Shown piece after piece: positions 124-24,793 of a stretch of DNA of 64,000 nucleotides. The position numbers and the translations under genes are program-made. The notes below the pieces were generated by a model. The model made no database searches. It was not told where the DNA came from and was given only the letters and a program-made list of their open reading frames with translations. The stretch covers positions 124,001 through 188,000 of the forward strand of contig NZ_PPEK01000002.1 in the NCBI RefSeq assembly GCF_002899715.1, given 5' to 3'. Origin of the DNA: Enteroscipio rubneri. GTDB lineage: Bacteria > Actinomycetota > Coriobacteriia > Coriobacteriales > Eggerthellaceae. The first letter of the stretch is position 1, and the number at the start of each line of letters is the position of its first letter.

Positions 124-810
124 ATGGAAGCAACGAATTTGGCGGAGCTTGACGACGCCATGCGCCATCGTATGGAGATGTACGCCTTGCTGGCGCGCCT
201 GTACCGCGAAGAAGTCGACGGGGATCTTCTGCAGATGCTGCAGGAAGGCGGCGTGACGGTCTCTGGGGACGCATCGCTTGACGAGGGATTGTATCTCATG
301 CGGCGCTATCTCGCATCGTCCGATGCATCGACGCTCGATCTGGCGAAAGACTACGCCAAGGTATTCTGCGGCGCCGCTTCGACCAACAAGACCGCGGCCT
401 ATCCCTACGAGTCGGTCTTCACGAGCGAGAAGGGCCTTCTCATGCAGGAGGCTCGCGACGAGGTGCTTGCGTGGTACCACCGTTACGGCCTCGGGCGAAG
501 CGAACGGTATCACGAGTGCGAGGACCACGTTGCGCTCGAGTTCGAGTTTTTCGCATTCCTCATCGGCAAGTATCTCGATGCGTCCGCGTCCGGGCAAGCG
601 GCCTCGGCCGAACAGCTGCTGGCCGCACAGCGGGATTTCATGCAGGGACACCTGGTCAATTGGGTGCCGGCGTTCTGCCGGCACGTGAACCTCCGAGCGA
701 AGACGGACTTCTATCGCGGCTTGGCGCAGTTGACGGCGGCCTACGTGAAGCGGGATTTCGCCGCATTGAAGGAGACGGCGGGCGCATTCGCGAGCGCGGA
801 GCGGTGCTAG
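124..810 (+). CDS. TorD/DmsD-family molybdoenzyme chaperone
   Basis: A 228-residue, mostly helical protein of the size of TorD/DmsD chaperones. These cytoplasmic proteins bind the twin-arginine signal peptide of a molybdopterin enzyme and hold it until cofactor is inserted. The start ATG follows a GAGAGGA ribosome site. The N-terminal stretch RMEMYALLARLYREEVDG is typical of the first helix of the family, and the E-x-x-D-H-V-A-L-E-F-E-F region near residue 140 matches the conserved E(x)DH motif. It sits 1 bp before the next iron-sulfur gene, so the two are probably one operon serving an enzyme encoded left of the window. It is not close to the nap genes, so its client is more likely the left-hand enzyme than NapA. 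Confidence 0.85.
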   Translation: MEATNLAELDDAMRHRMEMYALLARLYREEVDGDLLQMLQEGGVTVSGDASLDEGLYLMRRYLASSDASTLDLAKDYAKVFCGAASTNKTAAYPYESVFTSEKGLLMQEARDEVLAWYHRYGLGRSERYHECEDHVALEFEFFAFLIGKYLDASASGQAASAEQLLAAQRDFMQGHLVNWVPAFCRHVNLRAKTDFYRGLAQLTAAYVKRDFAALKETAGAFASAERC

Positions 811-811
811 C

Positions 812-1486
812 ATGGCTGGCGAAGCGGGCTCGGCGAAGCCGAAGGCGCCTCATGGCCCGAGCATGGGCCGCCGGGATTTCGTGTACGCAGCCGGCGCGAT
901 AGCGGGATTGGCGTGCGTGGGCGGCGCCGCGAAACTCGCGCCCGGAGACGAGAGTCTGATTCGACCGCCGGGAGGCGGCGACGAACAGGAGTTTTTTGCC
1001 CGGTGCACGCGCTGCGATCGCTGCCGCAGCGCGTGTCCCACCCGGGTCATCGCGCCGGCGACGCTCGAGGACGGACTGCTCTCAATTCGAAGCCCCAAGA
1101 TGAACTTCAAGTTGGGATGGTGCAATTTCTGCGGGGCGTGCGCCGAAGTCTGTCCGACCGGCGCGCTTGCGACGTCGGGCGGCGCGCGCTTCGCGTTCGA
1201 TCCGATGCCCGATGACGAGTTCTTCGAAACGTCGCTCGTGCTGGGGCATGCGGTTGTCAACGAAGACCGCTGCATCGCCTGGAAGGGGCAGAGCGCATGT
1301 GTTCTGTGCTCGCAGGCGTGTCCCTACGAAGCGATATCGCTTGACGAGTACGACAGGCCTGTGGTCGATGAGAACGCATGCAACGGCTGCGGGGTCTGCG
1401 AAAACCGCTGTCCGTCCTCCCGGCTGTTGAGCTATGGGGGAGGGGATGTGCGCGGCATCGAGGTGGAGCCTGCGCTCGTGCGCTGA
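812..1486 (+). CDS. NapG/MauM-like ferredoxin with twin-arginine signal
   Basis: A 224-residue protein with an N-terminal twin-arginine signal (GRRDFVYAAGAIAG, residues about 18-31) followed by four cysteine clusters for [4Fe-4S] centres: CTRCDRCRSACP, CNFCGACAEVCP, CVLCSQACP and CNGCGVCENRCP. This is the architecture of NapG, which passes electrons from a membrane quinol dehydrogenase to an exported reductase. The ATG at 812 has a weak ribosome site; ATG 863, just before the RR motif, would leave a shorter signal and is an alternative. It is placed between the chaperone and a NapH-like gene, so it probably serves the enzyme encoded upstream rather than nitrate reductase. Confidence 0.85.
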   Translation: MAGEAGSAKPKAPHGPSMGRRDFVYAAGAIAGLACVGGAAKLAPGDESLIRPPGGGDEQEFFARCTRCDRCRSACPTRVIAPATLEDGLLSIRSPKMNFKLGWCNFCGACAEVCPTGALATSGGARFAFDPMPDDEFFETSLVLGHAVVNEDRCIAWKGQSACVLCSQACPYEAISLDEYDRPVVDENACNGCGVCENRCPSSRLLSYGGGDVRGIEVEPALVR

Positions 1487-1520
1487 CGGAGCACCTCTCC
1501 TTCGAGAAAGAGTGCGTGTC

Positions 1521-2384
1521 ATGAAAAGAAAGATTCCGGTGACGTATCTCCGCGTGGCTGCCATGCTTTTGTTTTTTGCGCTCGTGCTTGTCGGGCTTGC
1601 GACGAACCTTGCGCCGGGTACCCCGTCCTCGTTCGGATTCGGCAGCATCGCGGCGATATGTCCGCTCGGCTCGCTTGAGGTGCTCATCGCATCGAAGACG
1701 TTCATCCCGCTGGCGGTGGCCTCCTTGGCGTGCCTGATCATCATCGCCTTCGTGCTGGGCAAGGTGTTCTGTGGCTGGGTCTGTCCCGTGCCCCTGTCCC
1801 TGCTGCTCGCCCCGAAAAAGGAGCGCGAGCTTTCCCGCGAGGCCGACGACGAGGACGGCGACCCCGTCTTGTCGCATCCTCATCCCGAGACGAGGGCGCG
1901 CCCTCGTTTTGATTCACGCTTCGCGGTGCTTTTGGGTGCGCTGGGTTCAACGGCGGTGTTCGGATTTCCGGTTTTCTGTCTTGTGTGCCCGATCGGCCTG
2001 ACGTTTTGCCTCGTCATCGGGCTGTGGCGGCTCATTGGTTTCAACGAGCCATCCTGGCTGCTCATCGTGTTCCCGCTGCTTCTCGCCCTCGAGCTGTTCG
2101 TGTTCAGAAGGTGGTGCCATAAGATATGCCCCCTGGGCGCGATCATGTCGCTCGCGAGCAGTCTGAACACGCGGCTGCGGCCCCATGTTGATCGAAGCAA
2201 GTGCCTGCGCACCACCGAGGGCATCGCCTGCACCCGATGCAAAGACGTCTGCTTTGAGGAAATCAACCTGCACGACGTTGACCATTCAAGGCCCCTGTGC
2301 GAATGCACGAAGTGCAAGGACTGCTCGTCGGTTTGCCCGGTCGGCGCCATCAGTTTCGGCAAGACGAAGCAGCCACGTCCTTAA
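1521..2384 (+). CDS. NapH-like membrane iron-sulfur protein
   Basis: 287 residues with four or so hydrophobic segments, the NapH-type cytoplasmic motif VFCGWVCPVPLS near residue 80, a second membrane-edge motif WCHKICPLGAIMS, and two C-terminal ferredoxin clusters (CTRCKDVC and CTKCKDCSSVCP). Such proteins oxidise menaquinol and feed electrons to a NapG partner. I place the start at ATG 1521 because the protein then begins MKRKIPVTYLRVAAMLLFF, a normal basic-then-hydrophobic start; the frame is open further upstream. A strong hairpin follows the stop, so this is the last gene of the operon. Confidence 0.85.
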   Translation: MKRKIPVTYLRVAAMLLFFALVLVGLATNLAPGTPSSFGFGSIAAICPLGSLEVLIASKTFIPLAVASLACLIIIAFVLGKVFCGWVCPVPLSLLLAPKKERELSREADDEDGDPVLSHPHPETRARPRFDSRFAVLLGALGSTAVFGFPVFCLVCPIGLTFCLVIGLWRLIGFNEPSWLLIVFPLLLALELFVFRRWCHKICPLGAIMSLASSLNTRLRPHVDRSKCLRTTEGIACTRCKDVCFEEINLHDVDHSRPLCECTKCKDCSSVCPVGAISFGKTKQPRP

Positions 2385-17631: not shown

Positions 17632-17775
17632 CTAATCCTTTTTCTCGAACTCATGGTGCCCGCAGTTGGGGCAGGCGGGCAACGCCTCGGTCTCGCTTGT
17701 GATGCGGACGATGTACCCGCAGTTCTTGCAGCGGTACGATCCCTCGCCCGGCTTGTCTCCAGTCTTGTACTCCAT
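17632..17775 (-). CDS. 47-residue zinc-ribbon protein
   Basis: A small gene too short for usual length cut-offs. It translates to a 47-residue protein starting MEYKTGDKPGEGSYRCKNCG and ending HHEFEKKD. Two C-x2-C knuckles, CKNCG (residues 16-20) and CPNCG (35-39), are 19 residues apart, the layout of a rubredoxin-like or zinc-ribbon fold. AAAGGAG lies 7 bp before the ATG. Related tiny zinc-ribbon proteins exist in many anaerobes, function unknown. It is separate from its neighbours: tRNA-Val on one side and the sensor kinase on the other strand. Confidence 0.85.
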   Translation of the reverse strand: MEYKTGDKPGEGSYRCKNCGYIVRITSETEALPACPNCGHHEFEKKD

Positions 17776-17893
17776 GAAAAGCTCCTTTCATCGGGTGCGT
17801 GCAGCCGAAAGACTATCACGCTCGTATTCCCGTCGGGCAGCGGTCGGAACCCGGATGCGCGACGGTTTGTTGACGGCGGGATCCTGGCCGACC

Positions 17894-17922
17894 GTGCAAA
17901 ACAGCTCGACTTGGGGGATAAT
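17894..17922 (+). promoter_or_regulatory. Candidate promoter of the sensor kinase gene
   Basis: GTGCAA (17894-17899) and GATAAT (17917-17922) are 17 bp apart, about 60 bp before the start codon. The -35 match is weak. Confidence 0.3.
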
Positions 17923-17980
17923 GGGTTGTCGAAGGGGAGCGCGACATACCCTGTGCTGCGACAGAGGGAAGGAGGGCGAG

Positions 17981-19177
17981 GTGGGCGCCTCGAATTTCAG
18001 CGACTATGTCCTGGCGGGTAAAGATGAGACGTATGCGGAGGCGGTCGCTGCCCTGAGGACGCGCCATGGTTTCGATTTTGTCGCGCTCGGCCTTACAGCA
18101 TTCATCGGCGCGCCGCTCAAATGGGTGTACAGCGCTGGCGCGACAGGGGAGCGCTATCGTCGCATCGTGCTCGCACCCGGTCACGGTATCGGCGGCATCG
18201 TGATCAAAGCGGGCAAGCCGATGATGTTCATCGACATCGATGAAGAAATCGATCCGCGGGAATACTCGTCGTATCCCATCGTTTTCGCCGAGGATTTGCG
18301 CAGCTTCTGCGCACTGCCGCTCATGCAGGAAGGACGCGTGGTCGCCGCGTTGCTCTGCGCGTACCGCTCGGTGAGCAGTCGTCACGAAAAGGCCTACCGG
18401 CGGCTGATCGAAGATCTGGGCGGTCAGATGTGCGATCTGGACGTCGTGTCCGCCGACTTCATGGATTTCGAGCGCATCGCGTCCGGGAAACGTGCGGATT
18501 CCGCGCGTAACCCCATATACGTTCGTTCGGAGCTCTCGCGCGTCATCGCCGCACAGGAGGATGAGCGCAAGCGTATTTCACGTGAACTGCACGACGGCAT
18601 CGCTCAGGAGTTGCTGGCCGTTTCGTTTTTGCTCAAGCGTCTTGATGCCCACGTTGACAGCGAAGGTGCCGCGCTCGTCTTCAACGCGGCGAACGACATC
18701 GATCGCATTCTAGATGAACTGCATAACATATCGGTGGAGCTCAGGCCCTTGGCGCTCGATCATCTGGGCTTCGTTGCGGCGTTGCGTTCCCAGGCGGCGG
18801 TATTCGAAAAGACTTACGGTGCTGAGATTTTGTTCGCGGGTGGTCTCTCGTGCGACCGGTTCGACCAGGCGCTTGAGACGCAGGCGTACCGCATTTGCCA
18901 AGAGGCCATTCTGAACGCGTGCAAGTATTCCGACACCGATCGCATCTATGTAACGCTTGAGGACTCCGATGGTTGGCTGCACGTGAGCGTGGTGGATCAT
19001 GGTTGCGGGTTCAATGCCGATGAGCCTGAGATCAAGGGGAGCGGATGCGGGATGCTCGGCATGCAGGAGCGCGCCAATATAATAGGAGCGACGTTGGACG
19101 TTGCGTCGGGGCAGGATGGGACGAAGGTTACGCTCGTTGCTCCGATGCATGCGACGGAAGGCAAGGAGGGGGCATGA
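17981..19177 (+). CDS. GAF-domain sensor histidine kinase (NarX/DegS type)
   Basis: 398 residues from GTG 17981, which follows AAGGAGGG. There is no membrane segment, so it is a cytoplasmic sensor. Residues about 15-150 form a GAF domain. A HisKA_3 dimerisation domain then carries the phospho-acceptor in DERKRISRELHDGIAQELL. The HATPase domain shows the N-box (YRICQEAILNACKYSD) and VVDHGCGFN and GCGMLGMQERA nucleotide loops. It overlaps the response regulator gene by 4 bp (ATGA). The convergent nap operon ends 60 bp beyond that regulator, so control of nitrate or redox metabolism is an attractive inference. The GAF ligand is unknown. It has no cysteine cluster of the NreB type. Confidence 0.9.
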   Translation: MGASNFSDYVLAGKDETYAEAVAALRTRHGFDFVALGLTAFIGAPLKWVYSAGATGERYRRIVLAPGHGIGGIVIKAGKPMMFIDIDEEIDPREYSSYPIVFAEDLRSFCALPLMQEGRVVAALLCAYRSVSSRHEKAYRRLIEDLGGQMCDLDVVSADFMDFERIASGKRADSARNPIYVRSELSRVIAAQEDERKRISRELHDGIAQELLAVSFLLKRLDAHVDSEGAALVFNAANDIDRILDELHNISVELRPLALDHLGFVAALRSQAAVFEKTYGAEILFAGGLSCDRFDQALETQAYRICQEAILNACKYSDTDRIYVTLEDSDGWLHVSVVDHGCGFNADEPEIKGSGCGMLGMQERANIIGATLDVASGQDGTKVTLVAPMHATEGKEGA

Positions 19178-19818
19178 TACGCATCATGCTGGCCGACGAC
19201 CACGAGGTGGTGCGTGCGGGCTTCAAGATGATACTCGAGCAAGATCCCGAGCTCGAAGTGGTGGCAGAGGCCGCCGATGGAGCCCAAGCGTACGCGGTGG
19301 CGGCGCGCGAGAAGCCCGATATCCTCCTTATGGATATCTCCATGCCGCCGGGGCAGAGCGGGCTTGTCGCATGTGAAAAGATTGCCAAGGACTTTCCTGC
19401 AACCAAGGTCATCGTTCTCACAATGTTCGCCGAGCCGGAGTATCTCTTCTACACCCTGCGCGGTGGCGCATCGGGTTACGTATTGAAGAACTCAACCTCC
19501 GAGGAGCTTATCGCTGCGGTTCGCGCCGTGGCCGGCGGAGGCAGTTACATCCATCCTAAGATGGCAGCTCTCCTCACAAAGCACCTCGTGGACGGCGGCG
19601 AAGAGCATGATCGCTCGTACCAGCAGCTATCGAATCGCGAACTGGAGATATTGCAGCTGTTGGCCAAGGGCTTCACGAACAAGGAGATATCGGAGCAAAT
19701 CTACCTATCCGTGAAAACCGTCGAGGCGCATCGCAGCAAGATCTACCAAAAACTCGGTTTCAAGACCCGAGCCGACCTCGTAGACTACGCGCTGCGCCAC
19801 AAGCTGCTCAACGTGTAA
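19174..19818 (+). CDS. NarL/LuxR-family response regulator
   Basis: 214 residues. The receiver domain has acidic D8/D9, phospho-acceptor D54 in LLMDISMPP, T in VLTMFAEP and lysine in GYVLKNST. The C-terminal LuxR-type helix-turn-helix is complete: LSNRELEILQLLAKGFTNKE then SVKTVEAHRSKIYQKLGFKT. The start ATG 19174 is preceded by AAGGAGGGGGC and overlaps the kinase stop. It is the obvious partner of the GAF kinase. The nap operon points toward it, so any regulation of nap acts on that operon's far promoter near 24.9 kb. Confidence 0.95.
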   Translation: MIRIMLADDHEVVRAGFKMILEQDPELEVVAEAADGAQAYAVAAREKPDILLMDISMPPGQSGLVACEKIAKDFPATKVIVLTMFAEPEYLFYTLRGGASGYVLKNSTSEELIAAVRAVAGGGSYIHPKMAALLTKHLVDGGEEHDRSYQQLSNRELEILQLLAKGFTNKEISEQIYLSVKTVEAHRSKIYQKLGFKTRADLVDYALRHKLLNV

Positions 19819-19879: not shown

Positions 19880-20788
19880 TTACGCTTGCTCGGCCGCGGG
19901 TTCCTCCGTCTCCGCAGGCTTCGCACCGCGGCCGAGCCCGAAGGAGAGCGCTTTGGTGGGGCAGGCGTCGATGCAGGCGCCACATGCCATGCAGTCTCCT
20001 GCGCGGACGACTGCATCCTCGCCTGCGAGCGCGGGCTCGAGGATGACCGGATCCGCCAGGCAGGAGCGCTTGCAGGCGTTGCAGTGGATGCAGGCCTCCT
20101 GATCGAGTTTGACGTTTACCAGGCCTGCGCGTCCAAGCGCCTCGTAGAAGCCTCCCAGCGGACAGAGCGCGCGGCACCATACGCGATGACCCCAGAACAG
20201 CTCAGCGAGCATGATGGCGGCCAGCATCCACAGTCCCGTGACCGCGCCGAACAGCACCCCCTTGTTGAGCGCGCTGATGGGCGAGAACGCCTCGAATACG
20301 GGAACGCTCGTGAGGGCCGAGAGTGCAAGCACGCCCAATGCGATCCAGAGCTTAGCCCGGCGTGGAACGGGCGCCTCGCGCACTTCGATGCCCAGCTTGC
20401 GTCTGAATGCGTCCTCGATCTCCAGCACGAGATTGACCGGGCATACCCATCCGCAGAATGCTCGTCCTCTGATCAGGCCGTATACTAACACTATTGGCAG
20501 CGCGGCCAGCAGCCACTCGACCGGCGCAGTCTTCGAGGCGACGATGACCTGCAGGACCCCGAATGGGTCTAGAAGGGCGAGCCCGCCGACGGAGGAGGAG
20601 GAAAGGCTGCCGAAGAAGGACAGGTCGGCAGGAGTGGAGAGCGGGTCGTCGCCGCCGACGGAAGCCCCGAACAGGCTCCAGCCCGCTATGAGCACCGGTG
20701 CGGCAAACAGCGCTATTGCCGCCACCTGCACGATGTGGCGGAACCAGGTCCAGCGAAACGAGCGAGACGCATCCGGGGTGGCGCTCAT
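19880..20788 (-). CDS. napH: Quinol dehydrogenase membrane component NapH
   Basis: 302 residues with four membrane helices, a long loop between helices 1 and 2, the membrane-edge motifs AFCGWVCPVNLVLEIED and WCRALCPLGGFYEAL, and two C-terminal [4Fe-4S] ferredoxin motifs (CIHCNACKRSC and CMACGACIDACP). NapH oxidises menaquinol and passes electrons to NapG. Its start overlaps the napD stop by 4 bp (ATGA). It is the last gene of napGABDH. The acidic AEQA-rich tail is non-conserved. Confidence 0.92.
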   Translation of the reverse strand: MSATPDASRSFRWTWFRHIVQVAAIALFAAPVLIAGWSLFGASVGGDDPLSTPADLSFFGSLSSSSVGGLALLDPFGVLQVIVASKTAPVEWLLAALPIVLVYGLIRGRAFCGWVCPVNLVLEIEDAFRRKLGIEVREAPVPRRAKLWIALGVLALSALTSVPVFEAFSPISALNKGVLFGAVTGLWMLAAIMLAELFWGHRVWCRALCPLGGFYEALGRAGLVNVKLDQEACIHCNACKRSCLADPVILEPALAGEDAVVRAGDCMACGACIDACPTKALSFGLGRGAKPAETEEPAAEQA

Positions 20789-21042
20789 CGCGATCCGGCC
20801 TCGGCGAGGGTGGGGTCGTCTTCGAAGTTGGCGTACACGAGGTTGATGCCCGTGACGCCGGGAATGTCGATGAAACCGCTCGCGATGGCATGCGAATCAT
20901 CGACGGTCTCAGCTTCGATGGTGACGACGATCTTGTAACCGTTCGTCTCGTGCACCTCGACGCCCGCGCGCTCTGCGAGCTCGGCCGACACCTTGTCGGT
21001 GCACTCGGGCTTCGTCTCCACGACCAGACTCGATATTACCAT
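20785..21042 (-). CDS. napD: NapA signal-peptide-binding chaperone NapD
   Basis: 85 residues. The start MVISSLVVETKPECTDKVSAEL and the later GYKIVVTIEAETVDDSHA match the small ferredoxin-like NapD fold, which binds the NapA twin-arginine signal and delays export until the molybdenum cofactor is loaded. GAGGAG precedes the ATG. It overlaps napH, which suggests coupled translation. A strong hairpin separates it from napB. Confidence 0.92.
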   Translation of the reverse strand: MVISSLVVETKPECTDKVSAELAERAGVEVHETNGYKIVVTIEAETVDDSHAIASGFIDIPGVTGINLVYANFEDDPTLAEAGSR

Positions 21043-21103
21043 GATGCTCCTCGCCTTCGTACTTGTTGCTTCCGGTATCCGTGGGTCGGACCGGAGAGGG
21101 AAG

Positions 21104-21132
21104 GACCGGGAGGGTTGTGCGCCCTCCCGGTC
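21104..21132 (-). other. Hairpin between napB and napD
   Basis: GACCGGGAGGG (21104-21114) and CCCTCCCGGTC (21122-21132) form a perfect 11-bp GC-rich stem with a 7-nt loop. No U-tract follows on the nap strand. It may protect the upstream napGAB message or partly reduce napDH expression. Confidence 0.65.
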
Positions 21133-21177
21133 TGCGCGTCCAAAGGCCTTCGGGCCGATGGGGCGCTCGGGCTCTCG

Positions 21178-21519
21178 CTATCCCTGCACGTGGCAGGTAA
21201 TGCACTGCGTGCGGGTGGGTTCGAGTTCCTTCGAATTCGAACCGCCGTCCGCGTAATGGTCCTCAGGCAGCGCGACCGATCCGTTGAGCATGGGATTCGC
21301 CTGATCGTTCGCACCGTGGCAGCCATAGCATCCGTTCGCGCCGAGACTGTCGAAGCGTCCATCGTGCGTGGCGGGCATGAGCGGCGCGGCCCCTTCGGGG
21401 ATGCTTGCGTTGACGTCCGCTTTTGCCGGCTCGCTGCTGCAGCCTGCCACGGCGCCCAGCCCCGCGGCCATCGTCATGACGAGGGCCGCCGTAATCAAAG
21501 ACTTCTTCATCGGTTTCAC
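21178..21519 (-). CDS. napB: NapB-like di-haem cytochrome c, probable lipoprotein
   Basis: 113 residues. An N-terminal helix ends in a lipobox-like AVAG-C27, so after signal peptidase II cleavage it would be lipid-anchored. Two haem c sites follow: C64-YG-C67-H68 and C106-IT-C109-H110. H52 and H88 are candidate sixth ligands. NapB takes electrons from the quinol side and delivers them to NapA. It is shorter than proteobacterial NapB (about 150 residues) and, unlike that soluble protein, appears anchored. It overlaps the napA stop by 4 bp. Confidence 0.85.
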   Translation of the reverse strand: MKPMKKSLITAALVMTMAAGLGAVAGCSSEPAKADVNASIPEGAAPLMPATHDGRFDSLGANGCYGCHGANDQANPMLNGSVALPEDHYADGGSNSKELEPTRTQCITCHVQG

Positions 21520-24080
21520 CCCTCGATCTTCGCGATGGACACGCAGGTCTTCTTGTAGTCGGGTTCCTTGGACAGCGGGCAGTACGTGTCCTGCACGGCC
21601 AGGTTGATAAGTGTTTCCTCTGCGAAGAAGGGAGCGAACACCGTGCCTGCTGGCGGTTGGGTGCGCCCGGCTGTGGACACCTTAATGTCGAATTCTCCGA
21701 ACCGCGATGTCACTTTGACCATGTCGCCGTCCTTCACGCCCAGTGCAGTACAGTCCTCCTGGCTCATGTTGAGCAGTGCCTCGGGCAGCGCTCGGTCAAG
21801 CTCGGGTATGCGGCGCGTCATGGTGCCGGTGTGCCAGTGCTCGAGCAAACGGCCGGTGACGAAGTAGAACGGGAACTCGCTGTCGGGCGTTTCCGCTGGC
21901 GGTTCGTAAGGGCGGAACACCACCGAGGGCTTGGATTTTGCGGATTTGTAGAAGCTGACGTCGTTCGCAAGTCCGGGGGTGCCATACTGGGCGACGCCCA
22001 CCTCGTCGAAGCCGTCTTCCTGCGCCCCGTTCGAGAAGCGCCACTTCGTGGGCAGCCACGTGCCGTCGACTTCGCGCACGGGCCAGGTAAGGCCGTGGTG
22101 GGCCAGGTACTCGTCATAGGGAGCAAGCTGCTTGGCCTCCATCTTCAGCTTGCCTTCGAACGTCCCGTCGGCATTGTCGTTGATAGCCTTGGCTTTTTCG
22201 TTCATGCTCGGGTTCGAGAAGATGCGGTACTCCTCCCAGATAGCCCGGTTCGTCTCGCGATCGTCGCCCTTGAAGTCAGCGGCATCCTTGTCGTAGATGA
22301 AGCCGAAGAGGTGGTCGAAGGCGTCCTCGCCGTCGATCTGCTCGCCGTCGAGGACGCGGCGCGCCACTTCCATGATGGCCCACAGATCCCACTTGGCCTC
22401 TCCCGGAGGATCGACGGCCTTCTCGAATACAGAACTGCGACGCTCGGCGTTTCCGAACTGGCCCTCGCGCTCGACCCACAGCGCTACGGGGAACACCACA
22501 TCGGCGTACTTGGTGGACATCGTCGGATACACCTCGTTCACCACGATGAACGTGTCGAAGATGCCCTGGTTGTCCTCGCCCTTGCCGAGGAAACGCGTGA
22601 GGTTGGGCATGGACTGGGCCCAGTTGTTGTGTGCCGTCCACAGAAAGCCGAGATTGCCCTTGGACATCTCGCGGAATATCTTCACCGTGTGCATGCCGGG
22701 CTTCTGAATTTCGTCAAGGTAGCCTTCCGGAAGATCCCAGATGGCTTCGGTGTAGCGGCGGTGCTGGGGGTTCTTCACCACGAGGTCGGCCGGTAGACGG
22801 TGCGAGAACGTGCCCACCTCGCGCGCCGTTCCACAAGCGGAGGGTTGTCCGGTGAGCGAGAAGGGCCCGCAACCCGGCTTGGCGATTTTGCCGGAAAGCA
22901 GGTGGATGTTGTACAGATTGTGGTTCATCCACGTGCCGCGATTGTGCTGGTTCACGCCCATCGTCCACAGCGACATGACTTTGGCATCCTTGTCCGCGAA
23001 CACCTTGGCGAGTTCTTCGAGGTCCTCGACGGGCACTCCGGAGAGCTCGGAGGTGTATTCGAACGTGTAAGGCGCCAGGCGTGCCGCGAACTCGTCGAAC
23101 GTGATAGGGGCGACATCGTCCACCGTCTTGCCGACATCGGAGGCGTCGTAGCCGTCGTCGGTGGCATTGCCGATGTTCTCTGTGCCTTGTTTGAACTGGA
23201 GGTGGTCGTTCACGAACGCCTCGTCGTAGAGCTTGTTTTGCACCAGGTAGTTGGCGATGCAGTTGGCGATGGCCAAATCGGTGTTGGGCTTGAAGAGCAT
23301 GGTCTTGTCGGCGCTCTCGCTCGTGCGGGTTTTGATGGTGCCCAAGTCGTAATGCCTGACCCCCTCGCCGGAGAGCTTGCGGGCAGTCAGGCGCGAGTAG
23401 AGCATCGGATGTGCTTCGGCCATGTTCGCGCCCCAGGTAACGAACACGTCGGCGTTGTCGAAATCCTCGTAGCAGCCGGCGGGTTCGTCGGTCTGGAACA
23501 CGTTCATGAAGCCCACGACGGCGCTGGCCATGCACAAACGCGCGTTGGGATCGATGTTGTTGGACAGCAGTCCCGCTTTCCAGAACTTTGCGGTGCAGTA
23601 GCCTTCGGTGATGGGCTGTTGGCCGCTTCCCCAGAACGCCAGGCGGTTCTTGTCGTTCTTCCATGTTTCCTTGAGCTTGGACGACACGAGTTCGAGCGCC
23701 TCGTCCCACGTCGCTTCGCGCAAACCCTCGTCGGTGCCCTTTGTGGAGCTGTCATCGCGGATGAGGGGTACGGTCAAGCGGTCTTCGCCGTACAGGATCT
23801 TCGCTAAGTAGTACCCTTTGACGCAGTTGAGGCCGCGATTCGACTGGTTGTCCGGGTCGCCCGTGACACTGATGAGCTTGTTGTCCTTCACCTCGCAGAT
23901 GACGCCGCAGCCGCATCCGCAGAACCGGCAAACGGCCGTGTACTTCTGACCTTCGCCTGCCGCGCCCGCCGTTGCGTTTCCGCTTGAGCAGCCCATAAGC
24001 GACGACATCGTTCCCGCCGCTGCGGCGCTTGCCAGCGCGACGGCCGTCGCTTTGACGAATCCTCGTCTTGAGATGTCCAT
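21516..24080 (-). CDS. napA: Nitrate reductase catalytic subunit NapA (molybdopterin, Tat-exported)
   Basis: 854 residues from ATG 24080, preceded by AAGGAGGGG; ATG 24119 (GAGGAAACC before it) would add 13 residues. The twin-arginine motif SRRGFVK is at residues 4-10. A possible lipobox, LMG-C31, follows, so mature NapA could be lipid-anchored. The [4Fe-4S] ligands are C51, C54, C58 and C86, with K88 next, the electron-relay lysine of the family. The predicted molybdenum ligand is C183 in DPNARLCMASAV. A cysteine ligand, with no serine or selenocysteine, supports a Nap-type nitrate reductase. Formate dehydrogenase or assimilatory reductase roles are less likely given the flanking napB, napD, napG and napH. 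Confidence 0.93.
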   Translation of the reverse strand: MDISRRGFVKATAVALASAAAAGTMSSLMGCSSGNATAGAAGEGQKYTAVCRFCGCGCGVICEVKDNKLISVTGDPDNQSNRGLNCVKGYYLAKILYGEDRLTVPLIRDDSSTKGTDEGLREATWDEALELVSSKLKETWKNDKNRLAFWGSGQQPITEGYCTAKFWKAGLLSNNIDPNARLCMASAVVGFMNVFQTDEPAGCYEDFDNADVFVTWGANMAEAHPMLYSRLTARKLSGEGVRHYDLGTIKTRTSESADKTMLFKPNTDLAIANCIANYLVQNKLYDEAFVNDHLQFKQGTENIGNATDDGYDASDVGKTVDDVAPITFDEFAARLAPYTFEYTSELSGVPVEDLEELAKVFADKDAKVMSLWTMGVNQHNRGTWMNHNLYNIHLLSGKIAKPGCGPFSLTGQPSACGTAREVGTFSHRLPADLVVKNPQHRRYTEAIWDLPEGYLDEIQKPGMHTVKIFREMSKGNLGFLWTAHNNWAQSMPNLTRFLGKGEDNQGIFDTFIVVNEVYPTMSTKYADVVFPVALWVEREGQFGNAERRSSVFEKAVDPPGEAKWDLWAIMEVARRVLDGEQIDGEDAFDHLFGFIYDKDAADFKGDDRETNRAIWEEYRIFSNPSMNEKAKAINDNADGTFEGKLKMEAKQLAPYDEYLAHHGLTWPVREVDGTWLPTKWRFSNGAQEDGFDEVGVAQYGTPGLANDVSFYKSAKSKPSVVFRPYEPPAETPDSEFPFYFVTGRLLEHWHTGTMTRRIPELDRALPEALLNMSQEDCTALGVKDGDMVKVTSRFGEFDIKVSTAGRTQPPAGTVFAPFFAEETLINLAVQDTYCPLSKEPDYKKTCVSIAKIEG

Positions 24081-24184
24081 GACACCCCTCCTTCTGTTCC
24101 CGTCGTTCTGTTCGTCCATGGTTTCCTCGTCCTTCAACGGTTCTGAGCCGTTCTTGCAGGCCGCGATTCGCTGCGCAGCAGCCG

Positions 24185-24793
24185 TCAAGCCTCGCCTCCG
24201 TCCGCACGTTCGGCATCCGTTGCGATGCGGATGGGTACCTCGGGTTCGCTTACCACGCAACGCTCCACGCACAACCCGCATCCAACGCATTGCTTCTCGT
24301 CGATGACAGGGGCGAACACCGAATGGATGGCGTCGCCTTCGCGGAGGCGATAGTCGATTGCGATGGCCTTGTCGATAAGGGGGCAGACGCGATAGCACAC
24401 CTCGCAGCGCATGCCCTGGAAAGCGATGCAGGCGTCCTCGTCGATGACGGCGACGCCCATGCGGACGTCAGAACGCTCGTCGATGTCGCGCAGTGCGCCG
24501 GTCGGGCATGCTGCGACGCAGGGGAAGTCCTCGCAGAGGCGGCAGGCCTGAGAACGTGCATCGACGATCGGCGTGCCCACAGCCATGCCCACGTCGCTGC
24601 CGGCGGGCCGGATGGCGAGGTAGGGGCAGGCCTGCATGCATGCGCCGCACTTGATGCAGTGCGCCGAGAAATCCGATTCTCCGTGTGCTCCGGGGGGCCG
24701 CAGCAAGAAGGTCTCGCCGCGCGTTGCGCAGTATGCGGCTTGGAGCACGACCATTGCTGCCGATGCGCCTGCTACGATGCTCGATATCCTCAT
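24185..24793 (-). CDS. napG: Ferredoxin-type protein NapG
   Basis: 202 residues from ATG 24793 (AAGGAGGAG before it). A hydrophobic N-terminus (ISSIVAGASAAMVVLQAAYC) could be an uncleaved membrane anchor or a Sec signal; there is no clear RR motif, unlike the NapG-like protein at 0.8 kb. Four ferredoxin clusters follow: CIKCGACMQACP, CRLCEDFPCVAACP, CEVCYRVCP and CVGCGLCVERC. It should carry electrons from NapH to NapB/NapA. It is the first gene of the nap operon. Confidence 0.9.
   Translation of the reverse strand: MRISSIVAGASAAMVVLQAAYCATRGETFLLRPPGAHGESDFSAHCIKCGACMQACPYLAIRPAGSDVGMAVGTPIVDARSQACRLCEDFPCVAACPTGALRDIDERSDVRMGVAVIDEDACIAFQGMRCEVCYRVCPLIDKAIAIDYRLREGDAIHSVFAPVIDEKQCVGCGLCVERCVVSEPEVPIRIATDAERADGGEA

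Follow-up and report, generated by a model that had tools for sequence, protein, structure and literature searches.

Organization of the nap operon

The window, i.e., the whole stretch of 64,000 nucleotides from Enteroscipio rubneri that was analyzed here (contig NZ_PPEK01000002.1, positions 124,001 to 188,000), carries five nap genes on its minus strand at 19880–24793. Their order, 5′ to 3′ napG-A-B-D-H, is kept across the family loci compared. Eggerthellaceae are monoderm; the usual picture of Nap is that of a soluble enzyme in the periplasm of diderm bacteria. The features of the operon and of the adjoining regulatory genes are as follows.

17666..19177, plus strand: sensor histidine kinase with an N-terminal NreA-like GAF region (92.7 bits against NreA, below the cut-off of 175)
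19174..19818, plus strand: LuxR-type response regulator, overlapping the kinase gene (family profile matches)
19880..20788, minus strand: napH, membrane quinol dehydrogenase ferredoxin subunit (TIGR02163, 213.0 bits, cut-off 213.05)
20785..21042, minus strand: napD, NapA maturation and Tat proofreading chaperone (PF03927, 74.3 bits, cut-off 28)
21178..21510, minus strand: napB, dihaem cytochrome c subunit, 110 residues (PF03892; single copy in the genome)
21190..21204, minus strand: NapB haem motif 2, CITCH, residues 103–107
21316..21330, minus strand: NapB haem motif 1, CYGCH, residues 61–65 (two CXXCH motifs in 54/54 family NapBs)
21439..21450, minus strand: NapB lipobox V-A-G-C24 at a Sec-type signal (lipobox-type Cys in 61/62 readable stand-alone NapBs)
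21516..24080, minus strand: napA, catalytic molybdopterin/[4Fe-4S] subunit, 854 residues (NapA profile and alignment with solved structures)
23988..23999, minus strand: NapA lipobox L-M-G-C31 (Cys kept in 68/75 coriobacterial orthologues)
24051..24071, minus strand: NapA twin-arginine motif SRRGFVK, residues 4–10 (RR, F8 and K10 invariant in 60 relatives)
24185..24793, minus strand: napG, ferredoxin-type subunit with 17 Cys (best family NapG; AGGAGG precedes ATG 24793)

Reading frames and family scores agree with an earlier note on this DNA that napG and napH are present and NapF absent; within the operon (19880–24793) we found neither NapC nor NapF. NapG scored 203.8 bits with the NapG model (cut-off 269), and NapH reached 217.4 bits (cut-off 234) with one model besides the TIGR02163 value listed above; NapG and NapH were still the best-scoring families for the two proteins.

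The kinase and regulator genes converge on the nap operon. The true start of the kinase likely lies further in, at about 17970, and its homologue adjoins nap in 32/79 loci, two of them being only 34% identical. Its GAF region resembles the staphylococcal nitrate sensor NreA, and the protein is a possible NreA–kinase fusion. It is a probable nitrate-responsive regulator.

NapA identity and signal region

NapA passed the equivalog model NF010055 (910 bits, cut-off 904, residues 1–851) and scored 881.9 bits with TIGR01706, below the cut-off of 930.55. Residues 49–852 aligned with the solved NapA structures 3ml1, 2nya, and 1ogy, and the Cys residues of the [4Fe-4S] and catalytic sites are retained when compared with 3ml1 and 2nya (CRFCG-GCGV, CVKGY, NNIDPNAR-CMASA). 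Translation starts at ATG 24080 with AGGAGG upstream, and the N-terminus, beginning with MDISRRGFVK, reads MDISRRGFVKATAVALASAAAAGTMSSLMG-C31 up to the lipobox Cys. The description of NapA as a Tat signal followed by LMG-C31 was thus borne out in frame, coordinates, and residues. Both LMGC in NapA and VAGC in NapB fit a PROSITE-type lipobox pattern after a signal peptide.

A lipobox in a single sequence is suggestive only, because shuffles that retained the Cys gave a lipobox in 17% of trials for the NapA signal and in 5% for that of NapB. It becomes convincing because the Cys is conserved among variable neighboring residues: in an alignment of 60 family NapAs, C31 is 92% conserved compared with 3% for M29 and 2% for N35. 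A conservation check on this Cys, set beforehand and run in Coriobacteriia, found it kept in 68/75 full-length orthologues. As diderm controls we used five proteobacterial plasmid NapAs, in which no Cys precedes the first FeS motif.

According to a tree of the catalytic core, the seven Cys-less NapAs represent at least three losses, i.e., in genus g10 (L103, L106, L108, and L109), in L154/L155, and in L086. The genome of L086 is near-identical to that of L112, from which it differs by TGC to TAC (C to Y) at the NapA lipobox Cys, which makes this pair a natural knock-out of the NapA anchor. Since the Cys was lost in these three lineages and the nap gene was kept, the predicted NapA anchor is dispensable there.

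NapB identity, start site, and lipobox

With PF03892, NapB scored 28.7 bits (cut-off 25.1) and together with its two CXXCH motifs this assigns it to the NapB family of dihaem cytochromes. It is divergent, because it reached only 22.2 bits with NCBIfam PRK11586, far below 230. The best start is ATG 21510, with GAGGGG eight bases upstream, from which the signal up to the lipobox Cys reads MKKSLITAALVMTMAAGLGAVAG-C24 (ending in GLGAVAGC). The earlier note had given the site as AVAG-C27; the lipobox Cys stands, but the numbering does not, as C27 needs an overlapping upstream GTG and the ATG start gives C24.

Among 65 NapB matches, 61 have a lipobox-type Cys, one falls on an assembly N-gap, two are NapA–NapB fusions, and one has a membrane helix; hence the Cys is conserved in 61 of the 62 readable stand-alone proteins. 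These counts were made with an overlapping lipobox pattern, since the strict non-overlapping pattern undercounts (46/54). The exception is the NapB at L152:4569-4273 (minus strand), which has an N-terminal membrane helix instead of a lipobox and, by this predicted helix, stays anchored by other means. The two fusions are single reading frames with a C-terminal dihaem domain (L154:4245-7094, minus strand, 952 residues; L155:3133-6027, plus strand, 965 residues); they are without a NapA lipobox, and neither napG nor napH adjoins them.

Nap in relatives

NapA orthologues were found in 79/138 family genomes. A class-wide search detected Nap also in families of this order other than Eggerthellaceae, and a sample of 396 genomes of the phylum contained none outside Eggerthellaceae. 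A search aimed at Bacillota, for DNA encoding TDEPAGCY with A/T at the third codon positions, hit coriobacterial genomes only. Seven family loci are without napB (L090, L093, L094, L096, L097, L098, and L099), and PF03892 has no match in their genomes; the NapA of all seven keeps the lipobox. In some relatives, AxA-type sites without a Cys are found.

Probable lipid anchoring as a trait of the lineage

The genome encodes both TatC (183.6 bits) and LspA (110.9 bits). The presence of these two proteins, the conservation of the Cys in NapA and in NapB, and its absence from the five proteobacterial NapAs make lipid anchoring well supported, and NapA and NapB are very likely both lipid-anchored proteins.

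We read by eye the N-termini of 15 Tat-signal molybdoenzymes in this genome, and eight of them, NapA included, have a lipobox-type Cys at the signal end. Because seven other molybdoenzymes share Tat-plus-lipobox, NapA is one of many; judged from these predicted signals, the arrangement is a house style of the genome or lineage and not an adaptation specific to Nap. What the earlier note had called a coherent monoderm adaptation of Nap is partly supported. It is plausible that anchoring is tied to the absence of an outer membrane. The genes, the Tat motif, the lipoboxes with their conservation, the haem motifs, and the TatC, LspA, and Ccm genes are seen directly in the sequences, from which we infer lipidation, surface location, the order of the electron carriers, and the compensation for a missing periplasm.

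A further Tat-lipobox molybdoenzyme was seen at L174:2020-6901 (plus strand, contig C10), where it is followed by a ferredoxin-like region and then by a tetrahaem NapC-like membrane cytochrome.

NapG lacks a twin-arginine motif

No twin-arginine precedes the hydrophobic segment of the NapG in the window. The same holds for 70/74 coriobacterial NapGs, with L102, L105, L108, and L109 keeping one. The N-terminal hydrophobic segment has a median Kyte–Doolittle value of 1.84 over 17 residues among coriobacterial NapGs, all of which contain 16 or more Cys; the FeS Cys are all retained in the NapGs without the motif. As NapG would carry many FeS clusters, the missing Tat motif matters, since the export route or the side of the membrane is at stake. 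NapG may be cytoplasmic or may be exported via an unusual route, and because 70/74 NapGs, that of the window included, are without the signal, it is doubtful that NapG acts outside the membrane. That NapG works at the cytoplasmic face is, in our estimate, a minority prospect.

A second NapG/NapH-like pair occurs in the window at 812–2384. As a substitute for NapGH it was set aside, since the pair is part of a TorD/molybdoenzyme cluster and has far lower NapG and NapH scores. This cluster (124–2384, plus strand) consists of a TorD-like chaperone, a NapG/NapF-like ferredoxin with a clear twin-arginine signal (GRRDFV), and a NapH-like protein, and it is located 3′ of a Tat molybdoenzyme just beyond the window edge.

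A divergent NapC-like cytochrome is encoded elsewhere in the genome

PF03264 (NapC/NirT) gave zero matches over the whole genome, yet this model is insensitive for the divergent type found here. At C1:251150-251863, next to ccmE, ccmF, and a gene for a CcmA-like ATPase, a homology search located the gene for a NapC-like multihaem cytochrome that is anchored in the membrane and has five CX2-4CH motifs. This cytochrome is 54% identical to the cytochrome from nap operons of relatives, and both cytochromes stay below the PF03264 cut-off. In view of this match we dropped the reading that the genome has no NapC, which the PF03264 result would suggest. The statement of the earlier note that there is no NapC holds for the operon and for PF03264 but needs qualifying for the genome; it is fair to say that a putative NapC-like donor is available to the cell and that NapC absence can be claimed at the operon level only.

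Homologues of the NapC-like cytochrome adjoin nap in 26/79 loci: 19 near napH, and seven directly 5′ of napG, namely in the napB-less loci, where it looks as if NapB had been swapped for a NapC-like donor. The haem motifs of the cytochrome in these seven loci are CX3CH, CX2CH, CX4CH, CX2CH, and CX2CH. In 46/79 loci, counted at the nap locus only, napB is present and the NapC-like cytochrome is not nearby. Several relatives have nap, the NapC-like cytochrome, and ccmE-ccmF together in one stretch.

The NrfA family was not found in the genome, so the nap route probably ends with nitrite, which would be released.

Model of a tethered Nap and alternative explanations

Taken as a whole, the data are best explained by a respiratory Nap that is held on the outside of the monoderm cytoplasmic membrane by lipid tethers, a model that we hold with considerable confidence on the predicted signals and gene content. 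NapA would receive its cofactors and fold in the cytoplasm with NapD, and would then be exported via Tat; a lipid would be attached at C31, and signal peptidase II would cleave the signal. NapB would take the Sec route, with lipidation at C24, and would receive its two haems on the outside from the Ccm system, whose genes lie elsewhere. In the membrane, NapH/NapG would oxidize menaquinol, possibly alongside the NapC-like multihaem cytochrome encoded apart from the operon, and electrons would pass to NapB and on to NapA, where nitrate would be reduced to nitrite outside the cell.

This tethering might be only apparent, with both lipoboxes being look-alikes and NapA and NapB being cut by signal peptidase I to become soluble or wall-associated. 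The signals are alanine-rich and form a lipobox on shuffling at the frequencies given above, and AxA-type sites occur in some relatives, but the Cys is conserved in both proteins over dozens of genera and the diderm NapA controls have no free Cys of this kind; we therefore regard this explanation as very improbable. Somewhat better placed, though still unlikely, is that only NapB is functionally lipid-anchored and that the NapA Cys is a tolerated relic, with NapA being held via NapB, NapH, or a retained signal peptide. It would account for the three lineages that keep nap without the NapA Cys, for the C to Y difference between the otherwise near-identical L086 and L112, and for a lipobox or helix in every readable stand-alone NapB. 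Against it, the NapA Cys is kept in 68/75 orthologues within a fast-changing segment, which argues for selection, and it persists in the seven family loci that have no NapB to hold NapA.

A third alternative is compatible with lipid anchoring and concerns the electron supply, i.e., the NapC-like cytochrome near ccm, and not NapGH, would perform the main quinol-to-NapB step, with NapG being cytoplasmic. The cytochrome is encoded in this genome, its homologues adjoin nap in a third of the loci or share a stretch with nap and ccmE-ccmF, where napB is missing in the family they sit immediately 5′ of napG, and NapG is without a Tat motif. However, in the genome of the window the cytochrome gene lies outside the nap operon, most loci have napB and no such cytochrome nearby, nearly every operon keeps napG and napH, and the Nap of Wolinella works without NapC through NapGH, as the literature cited in PMC3475470 and PMC12780646 has it. 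We consider this alternative a real but lesser possibility. Rather more tentatively, the electron path of Nap in Coriobacteriia may have been rebuilt as a whole, with a NapG minus Tat on the cytoplasmic side or inserted otherwise, an outer-face NapC-like cytochrome, and lipid-tethered NapB and NapA, from which relatives drop NapB, anchor it by a helix, or fuse it to NapA.

For the tethered Nap favored here, nature already provides comparisons: some close relatives have the NapA Cys and others do not, NapB is present in some and missing in others, and a NapA–NapB fusion occurs as well. Such differences would allow direct tests of what the anchor, NapGH, and the NapC-like cytochrome each contribute.

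Comparison with known systems

A monoderm napG-A-B-D operon without NapC is already published (PMC3475470). Heylen and Keltjens (2012, PMC3475470) described the nap operon of Bacillus azotoformans as napG1-A-B-D-G2 without NapC. Like the operon analyzed here, it belongs to a monoderm host and is without NapC and NapF; its NapA comes closest to that of an Eggerthella (61% reported), and its NapG1, for which an Eggerthella NapG is the nearest relative (57% identity), has no Tat signal and was placed in the cytoplasm by these authors. Unlike here, a second NapG with a Tat signal is part of the operon and napH is located elsewhere. The B. azotoformans NapA was assigned a Tat signal and its NapB a signal sequence, and with LipoP in use neither was called a lipoprotein (PMC3475470), which counts against anchoring.

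Wolinella succinogenes (work by Simon and Kern, as cited in PMC3475470 and PMC12780646) likewise oxidizes menaquinol via NapGH without NapC. In contrast to the system analyzed here, it is a diderm, its NapG is treated as periplasmic (PMC3475470), and no lipid anchor is described there.

Tat-exported lipoproteins are known, e.g., Rv0132c of Mycobacterium tuberculosis (PMC3478262), and that paper also cites work on Shewanella DMSO respiration and on Streptomyces. As in NapA, a twin-arginine motif is followed by a lipobox in Rv0132c, a folded cofactor protein on the cell envelope. It is, however, a different enzyme and was tested by fractionation, whereas NapA and NapB are known here from their sequences.

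In the literature that we searched, we found no report of lipid-anchored NapA or NapB or of an Eggerthella NapA lipoprotein. The closest precedent in idea comes from Gram-positive denitrifiers, where NirK, NrfA, and NosC were predicted to be lipoproteins and their diderm counterparts are soluble (PMC3475470). The same idea, proposed there for other enzymes, is here extended to NapA and NapB in Coriobacteriia, and their putative lipid tethering in gut monoderms would exemplify a way for a respiratory enzyme of the periplasm to function in cells that have none.
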